Positions 35,093 to 48,809 are shown, counted from the stretch's first letter. The stretch is DNA of 64,000 nucleotides from Alphaproteobacteria bacterium (GCA_012103325.1 WLWY01000001.1:124001-188000); one strand, 5' to 3'. Notes: generated by a model from the sequence alone, not told the origin. A program made the numbers and translations.

Positions 35093-35824
35093 CTATTGGT
35101 GTTTCAGTTTGATAGCAAGCGCCCTAAATTTATTAGCGTCAGCATGATCAGGGTTCAGATTGATGGCTTCGTCAAAATTGACGATAGCGTGGTCGTATTG
35201 GCCCTTCTTGGCATACGCTGCACCCCGGCTGCTGTAGAAGTCGGCATCATCGGGCCTGAGAGCGATCGCCTGGTCGTAATCCTGGATAGCGCGGTCGAAC
35301 TGGCCCTTCCAAAAATACGCGTTGCCCCGGTTGCTGTAGAAGTCGGCCTTATCGGACTTGAGAGCGATGGCTTGGTCAAAATCGTGGATAGCGCGGTCGA
35401 ACTGGCCCTTCTCGAAATGCGCGTTGCCTCGGTTGCTGTAGACGCTGGCATCATCGGGCTTGAGAGCGATGGCCTGGTCAAAATCGTGGATAGCGCGGTC
35501 GAACTGGCCCTTCATGGCATACGCATAACCCCGGCTGCTGTAGAAGTCAGCATCATCGGGCTTGAGAGCGATCGCCTGGTCGTAATCCTGGATAGCGCGG
35601 TCGAACTGGCCCTTCCCGAAATACGCATAGGCCCGGTTGCTGTAGGCGATGGCCAGATTGCTTTCCGCCAACCGGCCCGTTTCCATAAGCCAAGTGCAAG
35701 CGCTGATCTGCAAATCAGTATCGGCGGTGTTTCCTTGGCACAATCGTGCTTTGAACTCGAGTTCTTGCGCCTGCACGCCAGCCGCGAACCCGGCCAGAAG
35801 AAAAAACACCCATATCGCGCGCAT
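35093..35824 (-). CDS. Secreted tetratricopeptide repeat protein
   Basis: A 243-residue protein with a signal peptide (MRAIWVFFLLAGFAAGVQAQ) and five consecutive TPR units of 34 residues (NRAYAYFGKGQFDRAIQDYD, then DQAIALKPDD and similar). TPRs form a protein-binding solenoid, here probably in the periplasm. ATG 35824 is chosen for its GGGAGG site and the signal peptide. The repeats are almost identical at DNA level, see the repeat entry. Confidence 0.88.
   Translation of the reverse strand: MRAIWVFFLLAGFAAGVQAQELEFKARLCQGNTADTDLQISACTWLMETGRLAESNLAIAYSNRAYAYFGKGQFDRAIQDYDQAIALKPDDADFYSSRGYAYAMKGQFDRAIHDFDQAIALKPDDASVYSNRGNAHFEKGQFDRAIHDFDQAIALKSDKADFYSNRGNAYFWKGQFDRAIQDYDQAIALRPDDADFYSSRGAAYAKKGQYDHAIVNFDEAINLNPDHADANKFRALAIKLKHQ
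35232..35641. repeat. Four tandem 102-bp DNA repeats within the TPR gene
   Basis: The anchor CTGTAGAAGTCGG or a near match recurs at 35232, 35334, 35436, 35538 and 35640, an exact 102-base period of one TPR each. The near-identity at DNA level points to recent unequal duplication. Confidence 0.85.
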
Positions 35825-35912
35825 TAACGCCTCCCTAGACGAAAACCCGAAATCAAACCCAAAATTTACACGCATTCAGATATCTTTACAGCAGATTTGG
35901 GGTCAGGTTGAG

Positions 35913-36138: not shown

Positions 36139-37089
36139 ATGGCCGAACCACATCTTTCTTCGCCGACATTTGCAGGGTTTTCATTCGCGAGCCCCGAGCG
36201 TCTAGGGTCGGGCGATCTGGCCGTATTCGGCGTACCGCTTCATTCGGCACCACCACGCCGGCAAGGCTGTGCCGATGGCCCCTTAGCTGTCCGCGACACA
36301 TCACACGCGCTCATTCAGGGTTATCTGGATTCGCCGTCGCATACCGTTATGGACATGGACACAGGGCGCGCCAGACGATTGCGCGACCTGCAGGGATGCG
36401 TCGATCTTGGCGATCTTGACTGCAGTGGCCAGATCACGGGCACGGACATTGACCGGATCTCCGACCTTGTCGAAGCGATTGCAGCCGCGAAGGCGTGCCC
36501 GGTTCTGCTTGGCGGCGATAGCCGGTCGGTAGAAGGCCTCATACGGGGTCTCACGGCGGGTGGCTGTGAGGTCGGGCTGCTGGTCATTTCCAACAACCTC
36601 ATGCTCCCTGCGGTCAGCGGTGGCGAGCCCGTGGCACTGGCCGATCTCTTGGGAAGCCCCCCGCACGGGTCGGCCTGCCCCCTGCTCTGCGCCGGCACGA
36701 ATGGCTTGCAGTCCGGGACAGCATGGTCGCGTTTGAAGGACGCCGGAGGCCGGATCGTGGCGGCGGACGAGATTCACGATGCGTTTCCGGACGCCCTCGC
36801 GCGCATCAATACATTTTTGGCCGCGCATCAATCGATCGTCGTCTGCCTCGATCTCGAGGTCCTCGATTCCGGCCATGCCGCCGGCTCGCCCGCCGTCAAT
36901 GTCGGCGGGCTCTCCCCGGAACAACTCATCGCGTTGCTCTCGACAATCGAATTTTCAGGCTCGCTCGCGGGCGCTGCGGTCACAAATGTGGCGCCGATGC
37001 GAGACCCAAGGGGTCTTACCGAAGTGGCCGCGGCGGAATCTCTGCTGACGCTCCTCGGCAAACGTCTTTTCGTCGAGGTCGAGGCGTGA
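36139..37089 (+). CDS. Ureohydrolase (arginase/agmatinase) family protein 1, metal site degenerate
   Basis: A 316-residue member of the arginase/agmatinase fold, first of four in tandem. Fold marks survive: VLLGGDSRSVEG (GGDHS motif, His replaced by Ser), LLVISNNLML (where active enzymes have DAHxD; all three ligands lost), VVCLDLEVLDSG (the SxDxDxxDP region, with the second Asp replaced by Glu). Five of the six metal ligands are therefore absent or changed. It cannot bind the usual Mn pair and is probably a structural or regulatory subunit. GTG of the next gene overlaps its stop. Confidence 0.72.
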   Translation: MAEPHLSSPTFAGFSFASPERLGSGDLAVFGVPLHSAPPRRQGCADGPLAVRDTSHALIQGYLDSPSHTVMDMDTGRARRLRDLQGCVDLGDLDCSGQITGTDIDRISDLVEAIAAAKACPVLLGGDSRSVEGLIRGLTAGGCEVGLLVISNNLMLPAVSGGEPVALADLLGSPPHGSACPLLCAGTNGLQSGTAWSRLKDAGGRIVAADEIHDAFPDALARINTFLAAHQSIVVCLDLEVLDSGHAAGSPAVNVGGLSPEQLIALLSTIEFSGSLAGAAVTNVAPMRDPRGLTEVAAAESLLTLLGKRLFVEVEA

Positions 37090-38027
37090 CTCAAAACGCA
37101 AAAGCCGGCCAAGAAGGCGCGCTTCCGTTGCGTCCCGCCGCGACCTTCTTTGGCGCCCCCACCGGGGACATAGAAGATCTGGGCGACGGCAAAGTCGCTG
37201 TTGCCGGTGTCTACTGCGATCATTTTTCGGCAGGCGCCCCGGGCGGCAGATATGCCGCACGTCAAATCCGTTATACGAGTGCACCGGCCGCTCAAGCCGT
37301 ACCGTCATCGATAGACGATGTCATCGACCTTGGCGATTTCAACGTTTTCCCGCTGGAACCGGCGCGGACCGAAGCCGTCTTGGCCGAGCAATGCGAAAAA
37401 GTCATGGCGTCGGGGGCGCGTCTTTTATCGCTCGGCGGCGATTACAGCGTTTCACCGGCTCTCCTGAAGGGTATCGCGGCGGCGCGTGACGGTTCCATCG
37501 GATTGATCCGAATATCCAGCCGCTTGGATTTATCGCAACAAGATGCCGCGGAAACCGAGGGGCCAACGCGTCCCGCAACGACAGCGCGGATGGCAAATAT
37601 CGTGGCAGGCGGTCTTTCGAATATCGCGTTTCTCGGTACACGCGGCCCGTCGACCATCGAAGAAGTCCGGCGCACTTCGGCCTCGAAGGTGATACCCGCG
37701 GCAGGATTGGCGCACGAGATAACGCAATCCATGTCCGAGCTTCGCGCTTGGATGTCCCGCGCGGAGACGTTCTATCTCAGTCTCGATGCCGACGTGCTTG
37801 CGGCGCGATATGGGTCGACGGCCCTGCGCGGTGCCAGTGGGGGGCTTACCAAGGACCAAATTTTGAATGTGCTGGCGGCGCTCGAAGGAATGCCCTTCGT
37901 CGCCGCGGAATTGACCGGGCATCTTCCGAACCTCGACGTCGCGGGCCGTGCGACAACATCCGCCTTTGCGGAGATCGCTTTCAAGCTGGTCGAGCTCCTC
38001 CGCGCGGGTAATGCGTCATGCCATTGA
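37086..38027 (+). CDS. Ureohydrolase family protein 2, metal site degenerate
   Basis: A 313-residue arginase-fold protein. LLSLGGDYSVSPAL has Tyr for the first ligand His; GLIRISSRLDLS replaces DAHxD with SSRLD, keeping only its last Asp; FYLSLDADVLAARYGS keeps both Asp of SxDxD but has Ala-Ala for Asp-Pro. So half the ligands remain. It starts at GTG 37086 inside the stop of gene 1 (GTGA) and overlaps gene 3 by 10 bases. Catalysis of the usual type is unlikely. Confidence 0.75.
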   Translation: MTQNAKAGQEGALPLRPAATFFGAPTGDIEDLGDGKVAVAGVYCDHFSAGAPGGRYAARQIRYTSAPAAQAVPSSIDDVIDLGDFNVFPLEPARTEAVLAEQCEKVMASGARLLSLGGDYSVSPALLKGIAAARDGSIGLIRISSRLDLSQQDAAETEGPTRPATTARMANIVAGGLSNIAFLGTRGPSTIEEVRRTSASKVIPAAGLAHEITQSMSELRAWMSRAETFYLSLDADVLAARYGSTALRGASGGLTKDQILNVLAALEGMPFVAAELTGHLPNLDVAGRATTSAFAEIAFKLVELLRAGNASCH

Positions 38028-39007
38028 GATCAGCACCTCTGCCGAGAATGGCTGGCGACCTGACCTTTATGCGAACCCGCCGCGCGACGATCAATGATTT
38101 ACATCCAGATAATATCGCTGTCCTGGGCGCGCCGATCGAAGGCAATGTCGGCTTGAAAAGCGGTTGCCGCTTTGGGCCAGACGCACTCCGCGAAACCTCG
38201 GCCTATTTCGGCTGGCACGCCAACCCGCAGTTTTCCCGCCCGGTCGAGATCGATGCGCGTACGGCGGTCGATACCTCGTCGATCAACGATCGGGTTGTCG
38301 ACATCGGCGATGTTCCGCTGACGGGCGTGCCGAAGGCAGCGGCAATGACGGCCATCCGCGCCACCGTTCAAGACGTTCGGAGGCGCGGCGCATCGATAAT
38401 TTTGCTCGGCGGCGATGACGACATCGTCTTGCCTGCCGTGGCTGGCGGGGCAGTCGAGGAACCGTCGGCCTTTATACAGATTGGTGGGCGATTGCCCGGC
38501 AACATGGCTTCTGAATCGGAACCAACCAGTGCGTTGGAACCGCCGATCAAGCAATTGCTGGCCGCCGGAATTATTACACCGGGCGCGAGTATGGTAATTG
38601 CCGGAGCGCAAAACCCGGGTATCGAGTTTGCGCAACACTTTACCGCGTCGGGGGGCAAGATCCTGGGCCGCCGTGATGTATCGGAAATGACCGCCGCCGA
38701 GATGGCCGAGCTCGCGACGGATATCGCGCGCCGGGCGCCAACCTTGCAGGTCCATTTCGATCTCTCCGCTGTCAAACCCTCCTTACACGGTATGACCGAA
38801 ACCCCCAGCTTCGGGGGCCTCGCCGTGCCGACCATACGAACGCTTCTTGGTGCCATCGGGCAGGCACCGGTGTCCAATTTAGTCGTCACGGGTCTCAATC
38901 CCACCTTGAGCGGATTGAGCGTGGTCAAGACGGGCCAGCGGCTGCTGGTCACCACATTGCTCAGCTTCCTATACGGTAGGCTTGGACTGCAGGAGGCAGA
39001 CGGATGA
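38018..39007 (+). CDS. Ureohydrolase family protein 3, metal site degenerate
   Basis: A 329-residue arginase-fold protein. The first motif is IILLGGDDDIVLPAV (His to Asp), DAHxD is replaced by GGRLP in FIQIGGRLPGN, and SxDxDxxDP by QVHFDLSAVKPS, where only the first Asp is retained. The N-terminal fold segment IAVLGAPIEGNVGLKSGCRFGPDALRETS closely follows active family members, as does GLNPTLSGL near the end. It overlaps gene 2 by 10 bases and gene 4 by 4 bases (ATGA). Confidence 0.75.
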   Translation: MPLRSAPLPRMAGDLTFMRTRRATINDLHPDNIAVLGAPIEGNVGLKSGCRFGPDALRETSAYFGWHANPQFSRPVEIDARTAVDTSSINDRVVDIGDVPLTGVPKAAAMTAIRATVQDVRRRGASIILLGGDDDIVLPAVAGGAVEEPSAFIQIGGRLPGNMASESEPTSALEPPIKQLLAAGIITPGASMVIAGAQNPGIEFAQHFTASGGKILGRRDVSEMTAAEMAELATDIARRAPTLQVHFDLSAVKPSLHGMTETPSFGGLAVPTIRTLLGAIGQAPVSNLVVTGLNPTLSGLSVVKTGQRLLVTTLLSFLYGRLGLQEADG

Positions 39008-39981
39008 GACCACCGGCACCAACACTTTTCAACGCGCCGGCGGCTTCGGTCGAGGATCTGTCTCCCGGGACCGTTGGTGTGGTTGGCATGCCGATGGATT
39101 GGACTCATTCGAGCCGGATCGGCGCCCGCCACGGTCCCCGCGCACTCCGGCAGGCGACAACGGAACTGTCCAATAATCTCTTCAATGGGTCCGATGAGCG
39201 TTTCTACGACCCGGCGGATCAAGGATCGTGGCAGCGGCGGCCGGACGACAATCTCCTGGATTGCGGCGATGCTCCGATTGATCCGGCGTCCGTCGAACGG
39301 ACAACCGAATCCATTGCCGTCATGACGGAAGCGGTTCGCACGCGCGATGCGATCCCACTGGCGCTCGGTGGCGACCACTACAACGCGTTTCCCGCTTGCC
39401 TGGGATATTCGCGCGGGTTGGCAACGCGTCACCCCAACAGAAAATTTGGGTACATCCAAATTGACGGACATCTCGATTTTGCGGACCGCCTCGGCGCTTG
39501 GGGCACCCACAACCATGCGACAAATGGAAGGCGGATATCCGAACTACCTAATATCGAGCAAGCCAATATGGTCTGGATCGGCATCACCGCGTGGGTCGAT
39601 GGCAGCGAACTCGAGACGATCGAAAAGATGGGCGGCAAGGTTTTCTCGTCGACCGACGTCCACAATCTGGGCGCCGGAGACGTTGCGGATCGTGCCGTGC
39701 GCCATGCGACGCGCGGCTGCGAACATTTGTACCTTTCCTTGGATGTAGACGCGATGGATGCGGGATTTCTGCCTGGGACGGGTTCGGTTGTGCCCAGCGG
39801 CATTACACCGCGCCAGTATTGCCAAATGCTGGATGTCATCGCCGAAAAGGCACCGGTCGATGGCATTGATATAGCGGAGGTCGCGCCCTCTTTGGACCCG
39901 TCGGGACGGACCGAGCGCATCGCGGCGCATTTACTGTTCAGAGTGCTGCGGAACCGAATACTCGAACGCGAGGATTCTTAA
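39004..39981 (+). CDS. Ureohydrolase family protein 4, complete metal site (catalytic)
   Basis: A 325-residue arginase/agmatinase-family enzyme with all six metal ligands: His125 in LALGGDHYNAFP, Asp154, His156 and Asp158 in IDGHLDF, Asp247 and Asp249 in SLDVDAMDAGFLPGTG. It would hydrolyse a guanidino or amidino compound to urea and an amine. The HY (not HS) after GGD and the GTHNHATNG loop differ from arginase, and match broader agmatinase/guanidinase-type enzymes; the substrate is not predictable. Last and only intact member of a four-gene operon. Confidence 0.85.
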   Translation: MRPPAPTLFNAPAASVEDLSPGTVGVVGMPMDWTHSSRIGARHGPRALRQATTELSNNLFNGSDERFYDPADQGSWQRRPDDNLLDCGDAPIDPASVERTTESIAVMTEAVRTRDAIPLALGGDHYNAFPACLGYSRGLATRHPNRKFGYIQIDGHLDFADRLGAWGTHNHATNGRRISELPNIEQANMVWIGITAWVDGSELETIEKMGGKVFSSTDVHNLGAGDVADRAVRHATRGCEHLYLSLDVDAMDAGFLPGTGSVVPSGITPRQYCQMLDVIAEKAPVDGIDIAEVAPSLDPSGRTERIAAHLLFRVLRNRILEREDS

Positions 39982-40293: not shown

Positions 40294-42660
40294 CTACGGC
40301 AATTGCTGAGCGACCCCGGTCACGCCCGCCTTTACCAGCCGTTCGTATTCAGGCCCGTCCATGCCGAGCAGCCGCTCGAAGACTTCGGCGGAATGGGCGC
40401 CTTTGATCGGCGCGGCCCCGGTTACCACGGCCGGCGTTTTCGACAAGTGAAATGGAATGGCCGGTTGCGGCCAGATGCCGGCTTCCGGGTGGTCGACCAT
40501 GGCGATGCTGCCCCGGTCGCGATAAACGGAGTCGTGAGCAACCTCCAACCCATCGAGCACCGGTGCGGCGATCACCCCGGCCGCCGCCAGTTCGCCCGCC
40601 AAGGCATCGCGGTCCTTATCTGCGGTCCAGGCCGCAATCGCCTCATCCAGCGCATCCTCGTTGGCTTGCCGGTCGCCGGCGAACCTTTCGCGCCATTGCG
40701 GCTTTTTCGACACCCGGCACAACGCTTTCCATTGATCGTCTGTCGGCGCGGAAATCGCGATCCATCGATCCGCGCCGGCACAGGGATAGATGCCGTGCGG
40801 CGCGTAGGCCGCGTGGCGGTTGCCCATCGGGCCCGGGACCTTGCCGGTCAGCGCGTATTCCAGCCAGCGTTCGCCGATGAAGGTAAAGTTCGCCTCCTGC
40901 ATCGACATGTCGATGAATTGTCCTTCGCCGGTTCGGTCGCGGTGATAGAGCGCCAGCGCCAGGGCGGCGAACCCGTACAAGCCGGCGACGGCGTCGGGAT
41001 ACATCTGCCCCGAATTCATCGGCGTGCCGCCTTCGTAGCCGAGCAGCGCCGACATGCCCGATGCCGGTTCGATCGTGCCGCCGATGGCCGGCAGCGGCGA
41101 CCAGGGGCCGGTCTGCCCGAAGCCGGAAATGGAACAGAGGATGATGTCGTTCTTCACCGCGCGCAGATCGTCATAGGCGATGCCCAGCTTGCCCATGACG
41201 CGCGGCGAGAAGTTCTCGGCGACGAAGTCGGCCTCCGCCACCAGACGTTTGAAGGTCTCCACGCCTCCCGGTTCGGACAGTTCCAAGGTCACCGACTGCT
41301 TGTTCAGATTGACCGAGTTGAACAGCGCGTTGCAGTTCCACGGATGCTTCGCCGTTTCGCGATCCCGCAACGCCGAGGCAATCGGCGTTGTCGGCACGCC
41401 GCGCCACGAGTCCAGCCGCGTCCGCGATTCGACCAGAATGATTTCCGCGCCCATCAAACCCAAAAGCTCGGTCGCCAGCGACCCGGCCCAGGCCTGCGTC
41501 AGCACAACCCCGCGATAGCCCGCAAGTGGGCCGGCGTTGGAGCGCTTTGCCGGACCACTCGTTTTCGGCGGGCTGACTTCCGGTGGGTCGAGCATAGCTT
41601 TGGGACTCAAGCGCAATGGTGTCCGAGACATCTTGAACGGCGGCCCGGGATATTTGGCGCCGTCATAGTCGACGAAAAACTCCCGCGCTTCGAACTGCGG
41701 ATTCCGCGCCAGCTCATCCATCGTATAGGCGGGCCCGGCGACGGCGGGAATCTTCGACAGGGCGGCGAACAGATCGTCTTTAGTCCAATCCTGCATCGCC
41801 GCCTCGACCCGCTCGACGAACAGTTTCTTATTCGCCGCGTCGGCACGCGCGTGGTTGGTCTGCAGCCGCGGATCGTCGGCCAGATCGTCAAGGCCGAGCA
41901 AGCGCATCGCGCCCGCCCAGAAATGCGGCCGGGTCAGGGTCATGGCGAAATAACCGTCCTTGACCGGCACCGGGCCGGTTACGAAATCGACCGTGTCGCG
42001 CCGCGGCCAGGGCCGCTCTTCGTACAGGCTGCGCAGAATGCCCGGCGCCAGCGTCATCGCCAACACCTCGTCCATCGCAATGTCGATGCGCTGCCCGCCA
42101 CCGCCCGCGTGGCGATGGATCAAAGCGCACAGCACCGCACCAAACGCCATCGTGCCGGCTTGGTAGGCAGACTGATAGCCGCTCGACTTCAACGGCGACC
42201 GATCCGCCAACCCGTTAACCGATGCCCAACCCGACAGGGCGTCCGCGGTGAGTTCGTTGCCGGGCCAGTTCGCCCGCGCACCCGTCAGCCCGTGCGGTGT
42301 AATGGTGACGTGGATGGCCGCATCGTTACCGGCGGCATCGCGCATGTCGTCGATCCACTGACGATCCGCCGTGCCGGCAATCGCGGACTCGATGATGATA
42401 TCCACGTTCAAAAACAGCGCACGCCAATGCGGATCGTCTGGTTCATATTTGATCGATTGCCGATTGGCCAAAACGTAACGCGCCGGGATCGATTGACCAT
42501 CGCTGTCGAAAGGCACCAGGGCGCGCAACGGGTGCGGGTCGCGCATCACGACATCCGCCCCCGCATCCGCCAGCAGGCGCGCGCACCAGGCTCCTGCAGA
42601 ACTCGTCGAAAGATCGAGGACCCTCAGGCCCGCCAACGCTGTCGGAATATCGTCCTCCAA
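40294..42660 (-). CDS. CaiB/BaiF CoA-transferase, tandem two-domain form
   Basis: A 788-residue class III CoA-transferase made of two complete family domains (about 1-360 and 385-788). Starts ALAGLRVLDLSTSSAGAWCARLLADAGADV and GYRGVVLTQAWAGSLATELLGLMGAEIILVE show the duplication. In domain 1 the catalytic-Asp region is IDIAMDEVLAM and in domain 2 FIDMSMQEANF, so Glu may stand for Asp169 of formyl-CoA transferase. Second domain has the ENFSPRVMGKLGI segment. TTG 42660 is the start; it follows the SDR gene by 13 bases. Confidence 0.9.
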   Translation of the reverse strand: MEDDIPTALAGLRVLDLSTSSAGAWCARLLADAGADVVMRDPHPLRALVPFDSDGQSIPARYVLANRQSIKYEPDDPHWRALFLNVDIIIESAIAGTADRQWIDDMRDAAGNDAAIHVTITPHGLTGARANWPGNELTADALSGWASVNGLADRSPLKSSGYQSAYQAGTMAFGAVLCALIHRHAGGGGQRIDIAMDEVLAMTLAPGILRSLYEERPWPRRDTVDFVTGPVPVKDGYFAMTLTRPHFWAGAMRLLGLDDLADDPRLQTNHARADAANKKLFVERVEAAMQDWTKDDLFAALSKIPAVAGPAYTMDELARNPQFEAREFFVDYDGAKYPGPPFKMSRTPLRLSPKAMLDPPEVSPPKTSGPAKRSNAGPLAGYRGVVLTQAWAGSLATELLGLMGAEIILVESRTRLDSWRGVPTTPIASALRDRETAKHPWNCNALFNSVNLNKQSVTLELSEPGGVETFKRLVAEADFVAENFSPRVMGKLGIAYDDLRAVKNDIILCSISGFGQTGPWSPLPAIGGTIEPASGMSALLGYEGGTPMNSGQMYPDAVAGLYGFAALALALYHRDRTGEGQFIDMSMQEANFTFIGERWLEYALTGKVPGPMGNRHAAYAPHGIYPCAGADRWIAISAPTDDQWKALCRVSKKPQWRERFAGDRQANEDALDEAIAAWTADKDRDALAGELAAAGVIAAPVLDGLEVAHDSVYRDRGSIAMVDHPEAGIWPQPAIPFHLSKTPAVVTGAAPIKGAHSAEVFERLLGMDGPEYERLVKAGVTGVAQQLP

Positions 42661-44620: not shown

Positions 44621-45136
44621 CTAAAGCGACGTCGCCGCCCGTGCCGCCTGATCATACAGCCCCGACAGCGCGCGCAGTACCGATGCAGCCCGGCCGACCT
44701 CCTCGTTCTCGATCGAACCCAGCGCAGAAACCGTTTCAGTGAGGCACGCTTCGCGCACCTCGCGGTACCGCTGACACAGCGCGCGGCCTTCGTCGCTAGC
44801 GTCGTAATGCGCTTCCTTGCCCTGTTTCGTGGCCACCACGAACCCCGCCTTGACCAGCTTCTTGAGCGCGTAGTTGACCAGGTGGGTGTCCTCGACATTC
44901 AGGGTGAAGCAGATGTCAGCCAGCCGCTTGGCGCGGGTGCGGTGGTTCACCGTGTGCATGACCATGACGTCGAGGGCGCTGAGTTCCGGCGCACCGGCAG
45001 CGGCCATGCATCTTGTCATCCAGCGGTTGAAGGCGCTGGCCGACACCATCAGTCCGTACTCGAACTCCGACAGTTCGGCGGCGTCCTCCGCGACGAGATG
45101 CGCGGAGGAAACGATCTTCTTGCGCGGTGCGTTCAT
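44621..45136 (-). CDS. MarR-type winged-helix regulator
   Basis: A 171-residue winged-helix protein: LSALDVMVMHTVNHRTRAKRLADICFTLNVEDTHLVNYALKKLVKAGFVVATKQGKEAHYDASDEGRALCQRYREVRE is the DNA-binding domain with wing, framed by helices typical of MarR dimers. Its ATG (45136-45134) overlaps the stop of the fused hydantoinase gene (ATGA), so it is made with that enzyme and probably represses the operon. A palindrome lies at the operon promoter. Confidence 0.88.
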   Translation of the reverse strand: MNAPRKKIVSSAHLVAEDAAELSEFEYGLMVSASAFNRWMTRCMAAAGAPELSALDVMVMHTVNHRTRAKRLADICFTLNVEDTHLVNYALKKLVKAGFVVATKQGKEAHYDASDEGRALCQRYREVREACLTETVSALGSIENEEVGRAASVLRALSGLYDQAARAATSL

Positions 45137-48100
45137 TCCGCCGCCTCCGGCACCGGCTCGATCCGCGCCGCCGCCGGTCCGTATCCGCCGCCGGTCGGCG
45201 TCTGCAGTACGAAGACATCGCCCGGACCGACATGGGTGCCGTCCTGACCGGTCAGTTTCGTCACCGTGCCGTCGGCGCGCTCGACCCAGTTCTTGCCGCA
45301 CTGCCCCTGCTCGCCGCCGGCCATGCCGTAGGGCGGCACGATGCGGTGGTTCGACAGGATGACCAGGTCCATTTCTTCCAGGAACCGGATGCGGCGGTCC
45401 GAACCGGAGCCGCCGACATGCTTGCCCTTGCCGCCGGAGCCATGCCGCACAGAGAAGGTGTCGAGCATGACCGGGTAGCGCCATTCCAGCACTTCCGGAT
45501 CGGTCAGGCGGGTATTGGTCATGTGCGTGTGTACCGCAGACGTCCCGTCGAAATCCGGCCCCGCCCCGGACCCGCCGCAGACCGTTTCGTAATACTGGTA
45601 GCTGTCGTTGCCGAAGATGACGTTGTTCATCGTCCCCTGGCTCGCCGCCAATACACCAAGCGCGCCGTACAGCGTATCGGTCACGACCTGACTGGTTTCG
45701 GTATTCCCGGCCACGACGGCGGCGGGATATTCCGGCGCCAGCATCGAGCCTTTCGGGATGATGATGTTGATCGGCTTCAGGCAGCCCTCGTTCAACGGGA
45801 TCTGATCGTCGATCAAGGTGCGGAAGACATAGAGGACCGCCGACCGGCAGACCGCCGACGGCGCGTTGAAATTGGTCGGCCGCTGCGGGCTCGTACCCGT
45901 GAAGTCGACGGTCGCCTCGCGCTTGTCCTTGTCGAAGCTGATCTTGACCTTAACCACGCCGCCTTCGTCCAGCGGGTATTCGAACTGGCCGTCCTTCATC
46001 ACTTCAATGACACGCCGAACCTGCTCTTCCGCATTGTCCTGCACGTGCCGCATGTAGGCGTGCACCACGTCGAGACCGAACTGGTCGATCATCTTGTGGA
46101 CTTCGCGCACGCCCTTTTCGCCGGCGGCGATCTGCGCCTTGAGGTCGGCGACATTGTGATCCGGCTGACGGGCGGGATAGCGGCCCGACGCCAGATGCGC
46201 CCGCAACTTCTCTTCCAGGAATTCACCCGCATCGACCATCTTGAAGTTGTCGAAGAGAATGCCTTCTTCCTCCACCGTCGTACTGTCCGGCGGCGTCGAG
46301 CCCGGCGTGCGCCCGCCGATATCGGCATGGTGCCCCCGGCTGGCCACAAAGAAGAGAATGTCTTTGCCCGGCTGATCGAAGATCGGCGTGATCACTGTGA
46401 CATCCGGCAAATGCGTGCCGCCGTTATACGGTGCGTTCACCACATAGACGTCGCCCGGTTTCATCTTGCCCGCGTTCTCGGTCAGAACGGTCCGGATGGA
46501 TTCGCTCATCGAGCCAAGATGGATCGGGATATGCGGCGCGTTGGCCACCAGCATCCCTTCGGGGTTGAAGATCGCGCAGGAGAAGTCGAGCCGTTCCTTG
46601 ATGTTGACCGAGTAGGCCGTGTTCTCCAGCGTCACGCCCATCTGTTCGGCAATCGTCATGAACAGATTGTTGAAGACTTCGAGCATGACCGGGTCGCACT
46701 CGGTGCCGATGGCAAAGGTCCGTTGCATCGCGACAACGCGGTCCACAATGAGATGACCCTTCGGTGTCAGTTCCGCCTGCCAGCCCGGCTCGACGACGGT
46801 CGTTGCCGTCTGCTCGCGAATGATGGCCGGGCCCGCGACCGTGTTGCCGGGTTGCAATGTATCCCGATCGACGACCGGCGTGTCCCGCTCCTCACCGTCC
46901 ATATAGGCTTTCACGACGGCCAGTTTCTCGACCGCGCCGGGCGCACCGGCATCGTCGCGATCGGGCTCCGCCGCTTCCGCCATCAGGCCGATGCCTTCGA
47001 CGGCCGCGGCTTCGACGATCAGCCCTTTCTCCGGCATGATGAAGCCGTAATGCTGATGATGCGCCGCCTCGAAGCGCGCCGTCATTTCCTCCGGCGTGCC
47101 AAATTCGATGGCGTGTGGCGTATCGCTGCCGTCGTAGCGCAGATGCGCGCGGCGGACGACCTCGATCCGCTGGTCGGGAATGTCCTGTTCGCGCAGCTCC
47201 GCTTCGACCTCGCCAGCGAGCCCATCGAGGGTTGCGGCAAGGGATGGCATGACGGAATCGTCGAGGGTGACTTCGACGGCCTTTTCGCGCAGCGCCCGAA
47301 TGTCGGCGAGCCCCATGCCATAGGCGGACAGAACGCCCGCGAAGGGATGAACCAGAACCTTGGTCATCCCGAGCGCATCGGCGACGAGGCATGCGTGCTG
47401 TCCGCCCGCGCCACCGAAACAGTTGAGCGTGTACCCGGTCACGTCGTAGCCGCGCTGGACGGAGATCTTCTTGATCGCGTTGGCCATGTTCTCGACCGCG
47501 ATCTTCAGATAGCCGTCCGCGACCGCCGCCGGCGTGCGTTCGTCGCCAGTCGCTGCGTGGATTTCCGCCGCCAGGGCCGTGAACTTTTCGCGCACGACAT
47601 CGGCGTCGAGCGGCGCGTCCTGATTGGGTCCGAAGACTTGCGGAAAGAAATTCGGCTGCAGCTTGCCCAGCATGACGTTGCAGTCGGTGACGCTGAGCGG
47701 CCCGCCTCGCCGATAGCAGGCCGGCCCCAGGTTGGCGCCTGCCGACTCCGGTCCGACCCGGTAGCGCGAGCCGTCGAAGAAGCAGATCGAGCCACCGCCG
47801 GCCGCCACGGTATGGATCAGCATCATCGGCGCGCGCATGCGCACGCCGGCGACCTGGGTTTCGAAGGCGCGCTCGTACTCGCCGTCATAGTGCGCCACGT
47901 CGGTCGAGGTGCCGCCCATATCGAAGGAGATGATCTTGTCGAACCCGGCCTGCCCGGCGGTTTCCACCGCGCCGACGATACCGCCGGCGGGGCCGCTGAG
48001 GATCGCGTCCTTGCCCTGAAACAGGTTCGCATCGGTCAAGCCACCGCTCGACTGCATGAACATCAGGCGCGTGCCGCCGAGTTCCGAGGCGACCTGATCG

Positions 48101-48777
48101 ACATAGCGGCGCAGCAAGGGCGAGAGATAGGCGTCGACGACCGTGGTGTCGCCACGGCTGACGAGTTTCATCAAGGGACTGGTTTCGTGGCTCGTTGAAA
48201 TCTGCGTGAAGCCGATTTCACGCGCCAGCACCGCTGCCGCCGCTTCATGTTCGGTAAAGCGGTAGCCATGCATGAACACGATTGCGACCGACCGGATGCC
48301 ATCGTCGTATGCCGCTTGCAGCAGCGGCCGTGAGGCCTCGGCATCGAACGCGCGCAACACCTTCCCGTCCGCCATCACGCGTTCGTCGATTTCCACGACT
48401 TGCTCGTACAGCATTTCCGGCAGCACGATTTCGCGGTCGAACAGGCGCGGCCGGGTCTGGTAGCCGATGCGCAGCGCGTCGCGGAACCCGTCCGTCGTCA
48501 CCAGCAATGTCCGGTCGCCCTGTCGTTCGAGCAGCGCGTTGGTCGCGACCGTCGTGCCCATCTTGACGACTTCGATCTCCGAACCGGGAATGGGCGTGCC
48601 GGCCGCGACACCCATGAGGTCGCGGATACCTTGCACCGCCGCGTCGCGATAGTTCTCCGGATTCTCAGACAGCAGCTTGTGCGTCACCAGCGCGCCGTCG
48701 GGCCGCTGCGCCACGATATCGGTGAACGTTCCCCCCCGGTCGATCCAGAACTGCCAGCGCGCGTCGGTCTCAGCCAT
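45133..48777 (-). CDS. Fused hydantoinase A-hydantoinase B (5-oxoprolinase-like)
   Basis: A 1214-residue fusion. The HyuA half (about 1-690) has the phosphate loop WIDRGGTFTDIVAQRPDG and SFDMGGTSTDVAHY; the HyuB half begins near GTECDPVMLEVFNNLFMTIAEQMGVTLENTAYSVNIKERLDFSCAIFNPEG and includes ASRGHHADIGGRTPGSTPP. This is the 5-oxoprolinase (ATP-hydrolysing) layout, opening pyroglutamate to glutamate; a different cyclic amide is possible. ATG 48777 follows GGGGAGTG and starts the conserved MAETDARWQFWIDRGGTF. Confidence 0.93.
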   Translation of the reverse strand: MAETDARWQFWIDRGGTFTDIVAQRPDGALVTHKLLSENPENYRDAAVQGIRDLMGVAAGTPIPGSEIEVVKMGTTVATNALLERQGDRTLLVTTDGFRDALRIGYQTRPRLFDREIVLPEMLYEQVVEIDERVMADGKVLRAFDAEASRPLLQAAYDDGIRSVAIVFMHGYRFTEHEAAAAVLAREIGFTQISTSHETSPLMKLVSRGDTTVVDAYLSPLLRRYVDQVASELGGTRLMFMQSSGGLTDANLFQGKDAILSGPAGGIVGAVETAGQAGFDKIISFDMGGTSTDVAHYDGEYERAFETQVAGVRMRAPMMLIHTVAAGGGSICFFDGSRYRVGPESAGANLGPACYRRGGPLSVTDCNVMLGKLQPNFFPQVFGPNQDAPLDADVVREKFTALAAEIHAATGDERTPAAVADGYLKIAVENMANAIKKISVQRGYDVTGYTLNCFGGAGGQHACLVADALGMTKVLVHPFAGVLSAYGMGLADIRALREKAVEVTLDDSVMPSLAATLDGLAGEVEAELREQDIPDQRIEVVRRAHLRYDGSDTPHAIEFGTPEEMTARFEAAHHQHYGFIMPEKGLIVEAAAVEGIGLMAEAAEPDRDDAGAPGAVEKLAVVKAYMDGEERDTPVVDRDTLQPGNTVAGPAIIREQTATTVVEPGWQAELTPKGHLIVDRVVAMQRTFAIGTECDPVMLEVFNNLFMTIAEQMGVTLENTAYSVNIKERLDFSCAIFNPEGMLVANAPHIPIHLGSMSESIRTVLTENAGKMKPGDVYVVNAPYNGGTHLPDVTVITPIFDQPGKDILFFVASRGHHADIGGRTPGSTPPDSTTVEEEGILFDNFKMVDAGEFLEEKLRAHLASGRYPARQPDHNVADLKAQIAAGEKGVREVHKMIDQFGLDVVHAYMRHVQDNAEEQVRRVIEVMKDGQFEYPLDEGGVVKVKISFDKDKREATVDFTGTSPQRPTNFNAPSAVCRSAVLYVFRTLIDDQIPLNEGCLKPINIIIPKGSMLAPEYPAAVVAGNTETSQVVTDTLYGALGVLAASQGTMNNVIFGNDSYQYYETVCGGSGAGPDFDGTSAVHTHMTNTRLTDPEVLEWRYPVMLDTFSVRHGSGGKGKHVGGSGSDRRIRFLEEMDLVILSNHRIVPPYGMAGGEQGQCGKNWVERADGTVTKLTGQDGTHVGPGDVFVLQTPTGGGYGPAAARIEPVPEAAE

Positions 48778-48792
48778 GGTGGAACACTCCCC

Positions 48793-48809
48793 AATTGAAT
48801 TTTTCAATT
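48793..48809. promoter_or_regulatory. Palindromic operator in divergent hyuAB/CMD promoter
   Basis: AATTGAA (48793-48799), 3-base spacer, TTCAATT (48803-48809): a perfect 17-base site 16 bases upstream of the fused hydantoinase start. This fits the size and symmetry of MarR-type operators; the MarR gene is coupled to that operon. Confidence 0.7.

Follow-up and report, generated by a model that had tools for sequence, protein, structure and literature searches.

Positions 36139 to 39981 of a 64,000-nucleotide stretch of DNA from an Alphaproteobacteria bacterium (GCA_012103325.1, WLWY01000001.1:124001-188000; hereafter the window) hold four consecutive genes encoding proteins of the ureohydrolase fold, whose products we call U1, U2, U3 and U4 in 5' to 3' order. 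The row is beyond chance, because genomes far removed from this one repeat the gene order and just one further gene of the window's own genome matches the arginase family profile PF00491. A full set of metal ligands was seen in U4 only. We set out below why it is quite probable that the four proteins make up a single hetero-oligomeric amidino/guanidino hydrolase in which one subunit is catalytic and three are not; the 'dead' copies are probably essential helpers of that one enzyme.

All four genes lie on the plus strand, at 36139-37089 (U1, 316 residues), 37086-38027 (U2, 313 residues, with a GTG start), 38018-39007 (U3, 329 residues) and 39004-39981 (U4, 325 residues), and neighbouring genes overlap by 4, 10 and 4 bases. 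Each product covers the Pfam Arginase profile PF00491 almost end to end (E values of 2e-24, 2e-29, 3.5e-22 and 4e-59 from U1 to U4; 79.6-200.8 bits against a gathering score of 22), and no added DNA-binding or signalling domain was matched in U1 to U3 with Pfam, each being a single whole-length ureohydrolase domain. An earlier reading made from the sequence alone (the sequence-only reading) had described four tandem, overlapping arginase/agmatinase-fold genes of 313-329 residues, and its coordinates, lengths and overlaps of 4-10 bases all hold. None of the four reached any NCBIfam equivalog cut-off, including those for agmatinase, arginase and formimidoylglutamase, the best being U4 with 128 bits against the 174 set for agmatinase. 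In a Protein Data Bank (PDB) search the nearest solved structures to U4 were the guanidinase/agmatinase-2 entries 9fek (E 6e-31) and 7esr (E 1e-29).

The metal site divides the row. U4, the predicted catalytic subunit, carries a complete six-ligand di-metal site (H125, D154, H156, D158, D247 and D249) together with E292 and an NHATN motif. At the same six positions U1 has S128, S151, N153, M155, D238 and E240, keeping one ligand (D238); U2 has Y120, S144, R146, D148, D234 and D236, keeping three (D148, D234, D236); and U3 has D134, G156, R158, P160, D248 and S250, keeping one (D248). This table agrees with the sequence-only reading, in which the fourth protein alone had all six ligands and the other three had lost them in different ways, with Ser, Tyr or Asp in place of the GGDH His and SNNLM, SSRLD or GGRLP in place of the DAHxD block.

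The pattern is not peculiar to the window. In U4 orthologues the ligands are present in 28/28 aligned rows at five positions and in 25/28 at D247, and the key losses in the pseudo-subunits are the same across the 24-28 orthologues of each, the Asp equivalent to D154 being missing from every U1, U2 and U3. An unexpected result was the invariance of the D247 equivalent, the first Asp of the DxD motif, in the pseudo-subunits (24/24 U1, 27/27 U2 and 28/28 U3 rows), where it may have a structural role; U2 orthologues often retain D148 and D236 as well. Motifs specific to one subunit are also conserved, among them HAAG (U1) and RETSxYFGW (U3). In the latter protein the highest conservation falls on this patch and on an N-terminal arm, LPRMAGxLTFMR, above anything at the lost metal site, as would be expected if U3 had an interface role.

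To follow the gene order, we used aligned U4 orthologues as the query for one scan of a collection of 84,980 species genomes; pseudo-subunits lacking a U4 would escape such a query. The scan returned 31 loci, 30 of them relatives at 41-81% identity and one (L064, 26% identity) unrelated in layout. The order U1-U2-U3-U4 was found in all 24 non-Chloroflexota loci with enough upstream contig, in Alpha- and Gammaproteobacteria; these 24 include L044 and L062, which have identical scores and are perhaps the same sequence, and L060, in which U2 and U4 are frameshifted. Carriers comprise metagenome-assembled genomes (MAGs) of Rhodospirillales, Ruegeria, Shimia, Pelagimonas, Sulfitobacter, Methylobacterium and other Hyphomicrobiales MAGs, and Thioglobus and other Gammaproteobacteria. 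On shortened contigs of Desulfuromonadales and of one Firmicutes MAG the portion that fits, U2-U3-U4, is present. Many loci come from MAGs, the Desulfuromonadales and Firmicutes cases exclusively so; a binning artefact is excluded because several carriers are cultured isolates.

Searches closer to the window gave the same association. Among 44 genomes of the order, U3 relatives at 54-57% identity occurred in three of the four other congener genomes, two with the complete U1-U2-U3-U4 order and the third on a contig that ends inside U3. Across 384 other genomes of the class, separate U3 and U4 searches led to one and the same genome, with the two matches adjacent, and no U3 without a U4 was found among the 385 genomes searched with U3. 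In a random sample drawn across the phylum (398 other genomes) a gammaproteobacterial U4 had no match; the system is therefore rare, yet its parts travel together. A search of plasmids for annotated copies returned generic agmatinases only, at approximately 29-33% identity among the matches listed; the three of these inspected were singletons.

In a maximum-likelihood tree of 80 sequences, U1, U2, U3 and U4 each formed one clade with a bootstrap of 100 (paired supports 100/97 for U1, 100/99 for U2 and 100/100 for U3), and all four clades predate the split of the sampled lineages. The pseudo-subunits, together with three Chloroflexota paralogues that have SSQLD in place of DAHxD, were parted from U4 and other ureohydrolases by a branch supported at 99/98; this topology fits a single early loss followed by duplications, a reading to be taken with care because the branches concerned are long. 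Median pairwise ratios of non-synonymous to synonymous substitution rates (dN/dS) for U1 to U3 were 0.17-0.20 in Rhodobacteraceae and 0.11-0.19 in Gammaproteobacteria, with 0.07 for U4, values that indicate purifying selection on the three pseudo-subunits.

U1 and U2 of Rhodobacteraceae are reduced to approximately 255 and 225 residues, mainly by loss in the former metal-loop region, and in the Rhodobacteraceae and Hyphomicrobiales forms most active-site loops are deleted or scrambled. A structural model of the short Rhodobacteraceae U2 (mean predicted local distance difference test score, pLDDT, 84; predicted template modelling score 0.86) still has the ureohydrolase core, and the structures that match it best are those of agmatinases and other ureohydrolases (template modelling scores of approximately 0.74 by query length).

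Larger arrays were found in two Chloroflexota genomes. In a Dehalococcoidia genome (L089:2180-19000) nine consecutive genes encode ureohydrolase-fold proteins, with two more approximately 5 kb off, and another genome of that order (L090:3313-14515) has seven such genes in approximately 11 kb; in both arrays complete and broken metal sites are mixed and likely counterparts of all four subunits are present. These arrays of up to nine genes suggest a wider family of multi-subunit ureohydrolases. They also contain a second pairing in which a gene with a complete site (FDAHND) lies beside a broken-site gene.

Ureohydrolases were textbook homo-oligomers until metformin hydrolase was described in 2024. 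That enzyme (MetCaCb / MefH / MfmAB) and dimethylguanidine hydrolase (DmgH) are encoded by adjacent ureohydrolase genes for a catalytic alpha and a metal-free beta subunit (PMC11271267, PMC11399263). Metformin hydrolase is an alpha2beta4 complex in which metal is bound by alpha only and either subunit alone is inactive (PMC11271267, PMC11399263), the alpha active site being capped by the N-terminal 23 residues of beta (PMC11271267). The sequence-only reading knew of no described system of this layout. A precedent does exist for six di-metal ligands in just one product of adjacent ureohydrolase genes, although it has two genes and one type of pseudo-subunit where the window has four genes and three types; a search of PubMed Central literature, to which subscription papers and preprints are external, turned up no ureohydrolase with two or more types of pseudo-subunit. 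Genes for nickel chaperones (HypA/HypB) belong to MefH operons (PMC11271267, PMC11399263); the window's genome, 92.5% complete, yielded no HypA, and no nickel chaperone is among the identified genes of the L038 and L044 operons. In PDB searches other ureohydrolases outscored the metformin hydrolase subunits, and an independent origin is likely, since for none of U1, U2 and U3 is beta the nearest solved structure. By analogy, the window's set would thus work like metformin hydrolase in principle without being a member of it.

Other relatives share single features with the set. Guanidine hydrolase/agmatinase-2 (9fek, 7esr) has the fold and ligands of U4, but pseudo-subunits are not reported for it in the literature found, whereas U4 relatives sit with U1 to U3 and in another operon. 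The T. brucei arginase-like protein (PDB 4rhj, 4rhl) is a metal-free pseudoarginase with Ser and Arg at former ligand positions, comparable with the SSRLD block of U2; it was not found with a catalytic partner, however, and is a weak match, to U2 only. In plant arginases a loop of the neighbouring subunit holds the substrate (PMC7370999), so that a neighbour contributes to the pocket there too, although these are homo-oligomers in which every subunit is catalytic.

The genes around the row elsewhere give it a setting. Outside the window's genus, the operon comprises an IclR-type regulator, an importer made of a PotD-like binding protein and PotA-, PotB- and PotC-like proteins, U1 to U4, a protein of approximately 235 residues, an aldehyde dehydrogenase and a type III coenzyme A (CoA)-transferase, after which comes an enzyme resembling 3-hydroxy-3-methylglutaryl-CoA (HMG-CoA) lyase or citryl-CoA lyase. 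This layout points to a pathway of uptake and degradation. The sequence-only reading had stated that nothing nearby names the substrate, which holds within the window, although the orthologous loci show this operon; because they do, a processing enzyme is favoured over a sensor, the other half of its proposed guanidino-compound sensing/processing system. The nearest solved relatives of the importer's binding protein are binders of opines (MotA, agropine) and polyamines and a gamma-aminobutyrate sensor, which is not decisive for the substrate. A route via 3-hydroxy-3-methylglutarate, using the CoA-transferase and HMG-CoA lyase, was considered and is speculative, backed by gene families alone.

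Taken as one enzyme, the system could work as follows. U4 would do the chemistry at its di-metal site, with U1, U2 and U3 making up the rest of an oligomer (a trimer, a hexamer or something larger); there their task would be to maintain the solubility of U4 and to shape its substrate pocket or cap it, probably via conserved N-terminal arms such as that of U3. In most lineages a nitrogen compound, cationic or zwitterionic, would be taken up by a PotABCD-type ATP-binding cassette importer and hydrolysed by the complex, and its carbon skeleton would be degraded by the aldehyde dehydrogenase, the CoA-transferase and the lyase-like enzyme. The idea that one catalytic and three pseudoenzyme subunits work together, as the sequence-only reading proposed, has good support from the preserved gene order, the joint occurrence of the genes, the shared ligand losses and the selection on them, from which we infer the hetero-oligomer itself.

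This reading has to be weighed against three others. U4 might be an independent homo-oligomeric hydrolase, with U1 to U3 forming a separate complex or serving the pathway as regulators or as sensors that bind a ligand; stand-alone metal-free arginase-fold proteins such as that of T. brucei do exist, and U1 to U3 diverge faster than U4. We regard this as unlikely, given that U1 to U3 are single whole-length domains with no regulatory domain match, that the operon already has its IclR-type regulator, that U4 relatives with enough flank are always accompanied by U1 to U3, and that the alpha subunit of metformin hydrolase is inactive without beta (PMC11271267, PMC11399263). It is more doubtful still that U1 to U3 came to catalyse other reactions, for example with one metal or none, the four enzymes then acting in sequence on one substrate. 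Most active-site loops are deleted or scrambled in the Rhodobacteraceae and Hyphomicrobiales forms, and no new conserved cluster of polar residues was seen at the old metal site of U1 to U3, against which stand the invariant Asp at the D247 position, the D148 and D236 often kept by U2 and the conserved subunit-specific motifs. Least credible is that the copies are decaying duplicates without joint function: each did lose its ligands differently, but the losses recur in four congeners and in distant classes, the clades are ancient with supports of 100, dN/dS lies well below 1, and order and overlaps are conserved. Lineage-specific decay with no conserved order, which the sequence-only reading had named as what would overturn it, is likewise contradicted by the order in 24/24 loci and by dN/dS values of 0.11-0.20.

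Several observations weigh against the single hetero-oligomeric hydrolase. Four chain types are not simply divisible into a trimer or a dimer of trimers. Three gammaproteobacterial U4 proteins (L038:9980-10966, L039:5267-6253 and L041:9980-10966) have Cys at D247 (SLDVD to SLCID), so the canonical metal site is not universal. Correlated evolutionary distances among the subunits are confounded by common ancestry. Finally, the window's genus lacks an adjacent importer, aldehyde dehydrogenase and protein of approximately 235 residues, and the proposed pathway may therefore not hold for the window; neither that protein nor a close importer homologue was found in the window's genome, where the enzyme may belong to another pathway or an unlinked one.

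With these points included, we lean towards a class of ureohydrolase complexes that would open a guanidino or amidino substrate in marine and other bacteria and would each combine four distinct homologues, three being pseudoenzymes that arose when the DAH metal block was lost early on. If true, pseudoenzyme subunits in this family are older and more elaborate than the metformin hydrolase case, with three separately maintained non-catalytic roles. The system, present in cultured marine bacteria such as Ruegeria, Shimia and Pelagimonas, would then offer a testable model for dead paralogues turning into obligate subunits, and it points to an uncharacterised catabolic pathway for a nitrogen compound.

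The operon protein of approximately 235 residues (L038:10978-11685, L044:10969-11658 and 20 other loci) had no significant Pfam, NCBIfam or PDB match. Only phage PHROG families matched it: it is related to families 36643 and 1062 and has a weaker relationship with virion structural proteins of jumbo phages. Its AlphaFold model has a mean pLDDT of 69, and the PDB fold matches of this model are meaningless.

Around the row in the window, the neighbours differ in every congener and none is shared, and the four-gene block is therefore the minimal conserved unit in the genus. A CoA-transferase family III-like gene lies at 40294-42660 on the minus strand (an open reading frame of 788 residues) and clusters by BLAST with the operon CoA-transferases. 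Because the same family occurs in the conserved operon of other genomes it is a possible, if weak, candidate for a functional partner; it is on the opposite strand and is not conserved beside the block in congeners. No guanidine or other riboswitch was found at 30-46 kb of the window (E up to 1) or in seven orthologous loci (at the gathering score). Just upstream of U1, at 35093-35875 on the minus strand, is a gene for a tetratricopeptide-like protein with near-identical tandem repeats. An open reading frame of 1224 residues at 45133-48807 (minus strand), 5 kb downstream and not conserved beside the block in congeners, resembles by eye a fused hydantoinase A/B of the oxoprolinase type. Near the ureohydrolase operon of a marine Pseudomonadales MAG (L041:17949-20966), an open reading frame has what looks by eye like a Cas9-like start (GLDLGSNSLGWAL).

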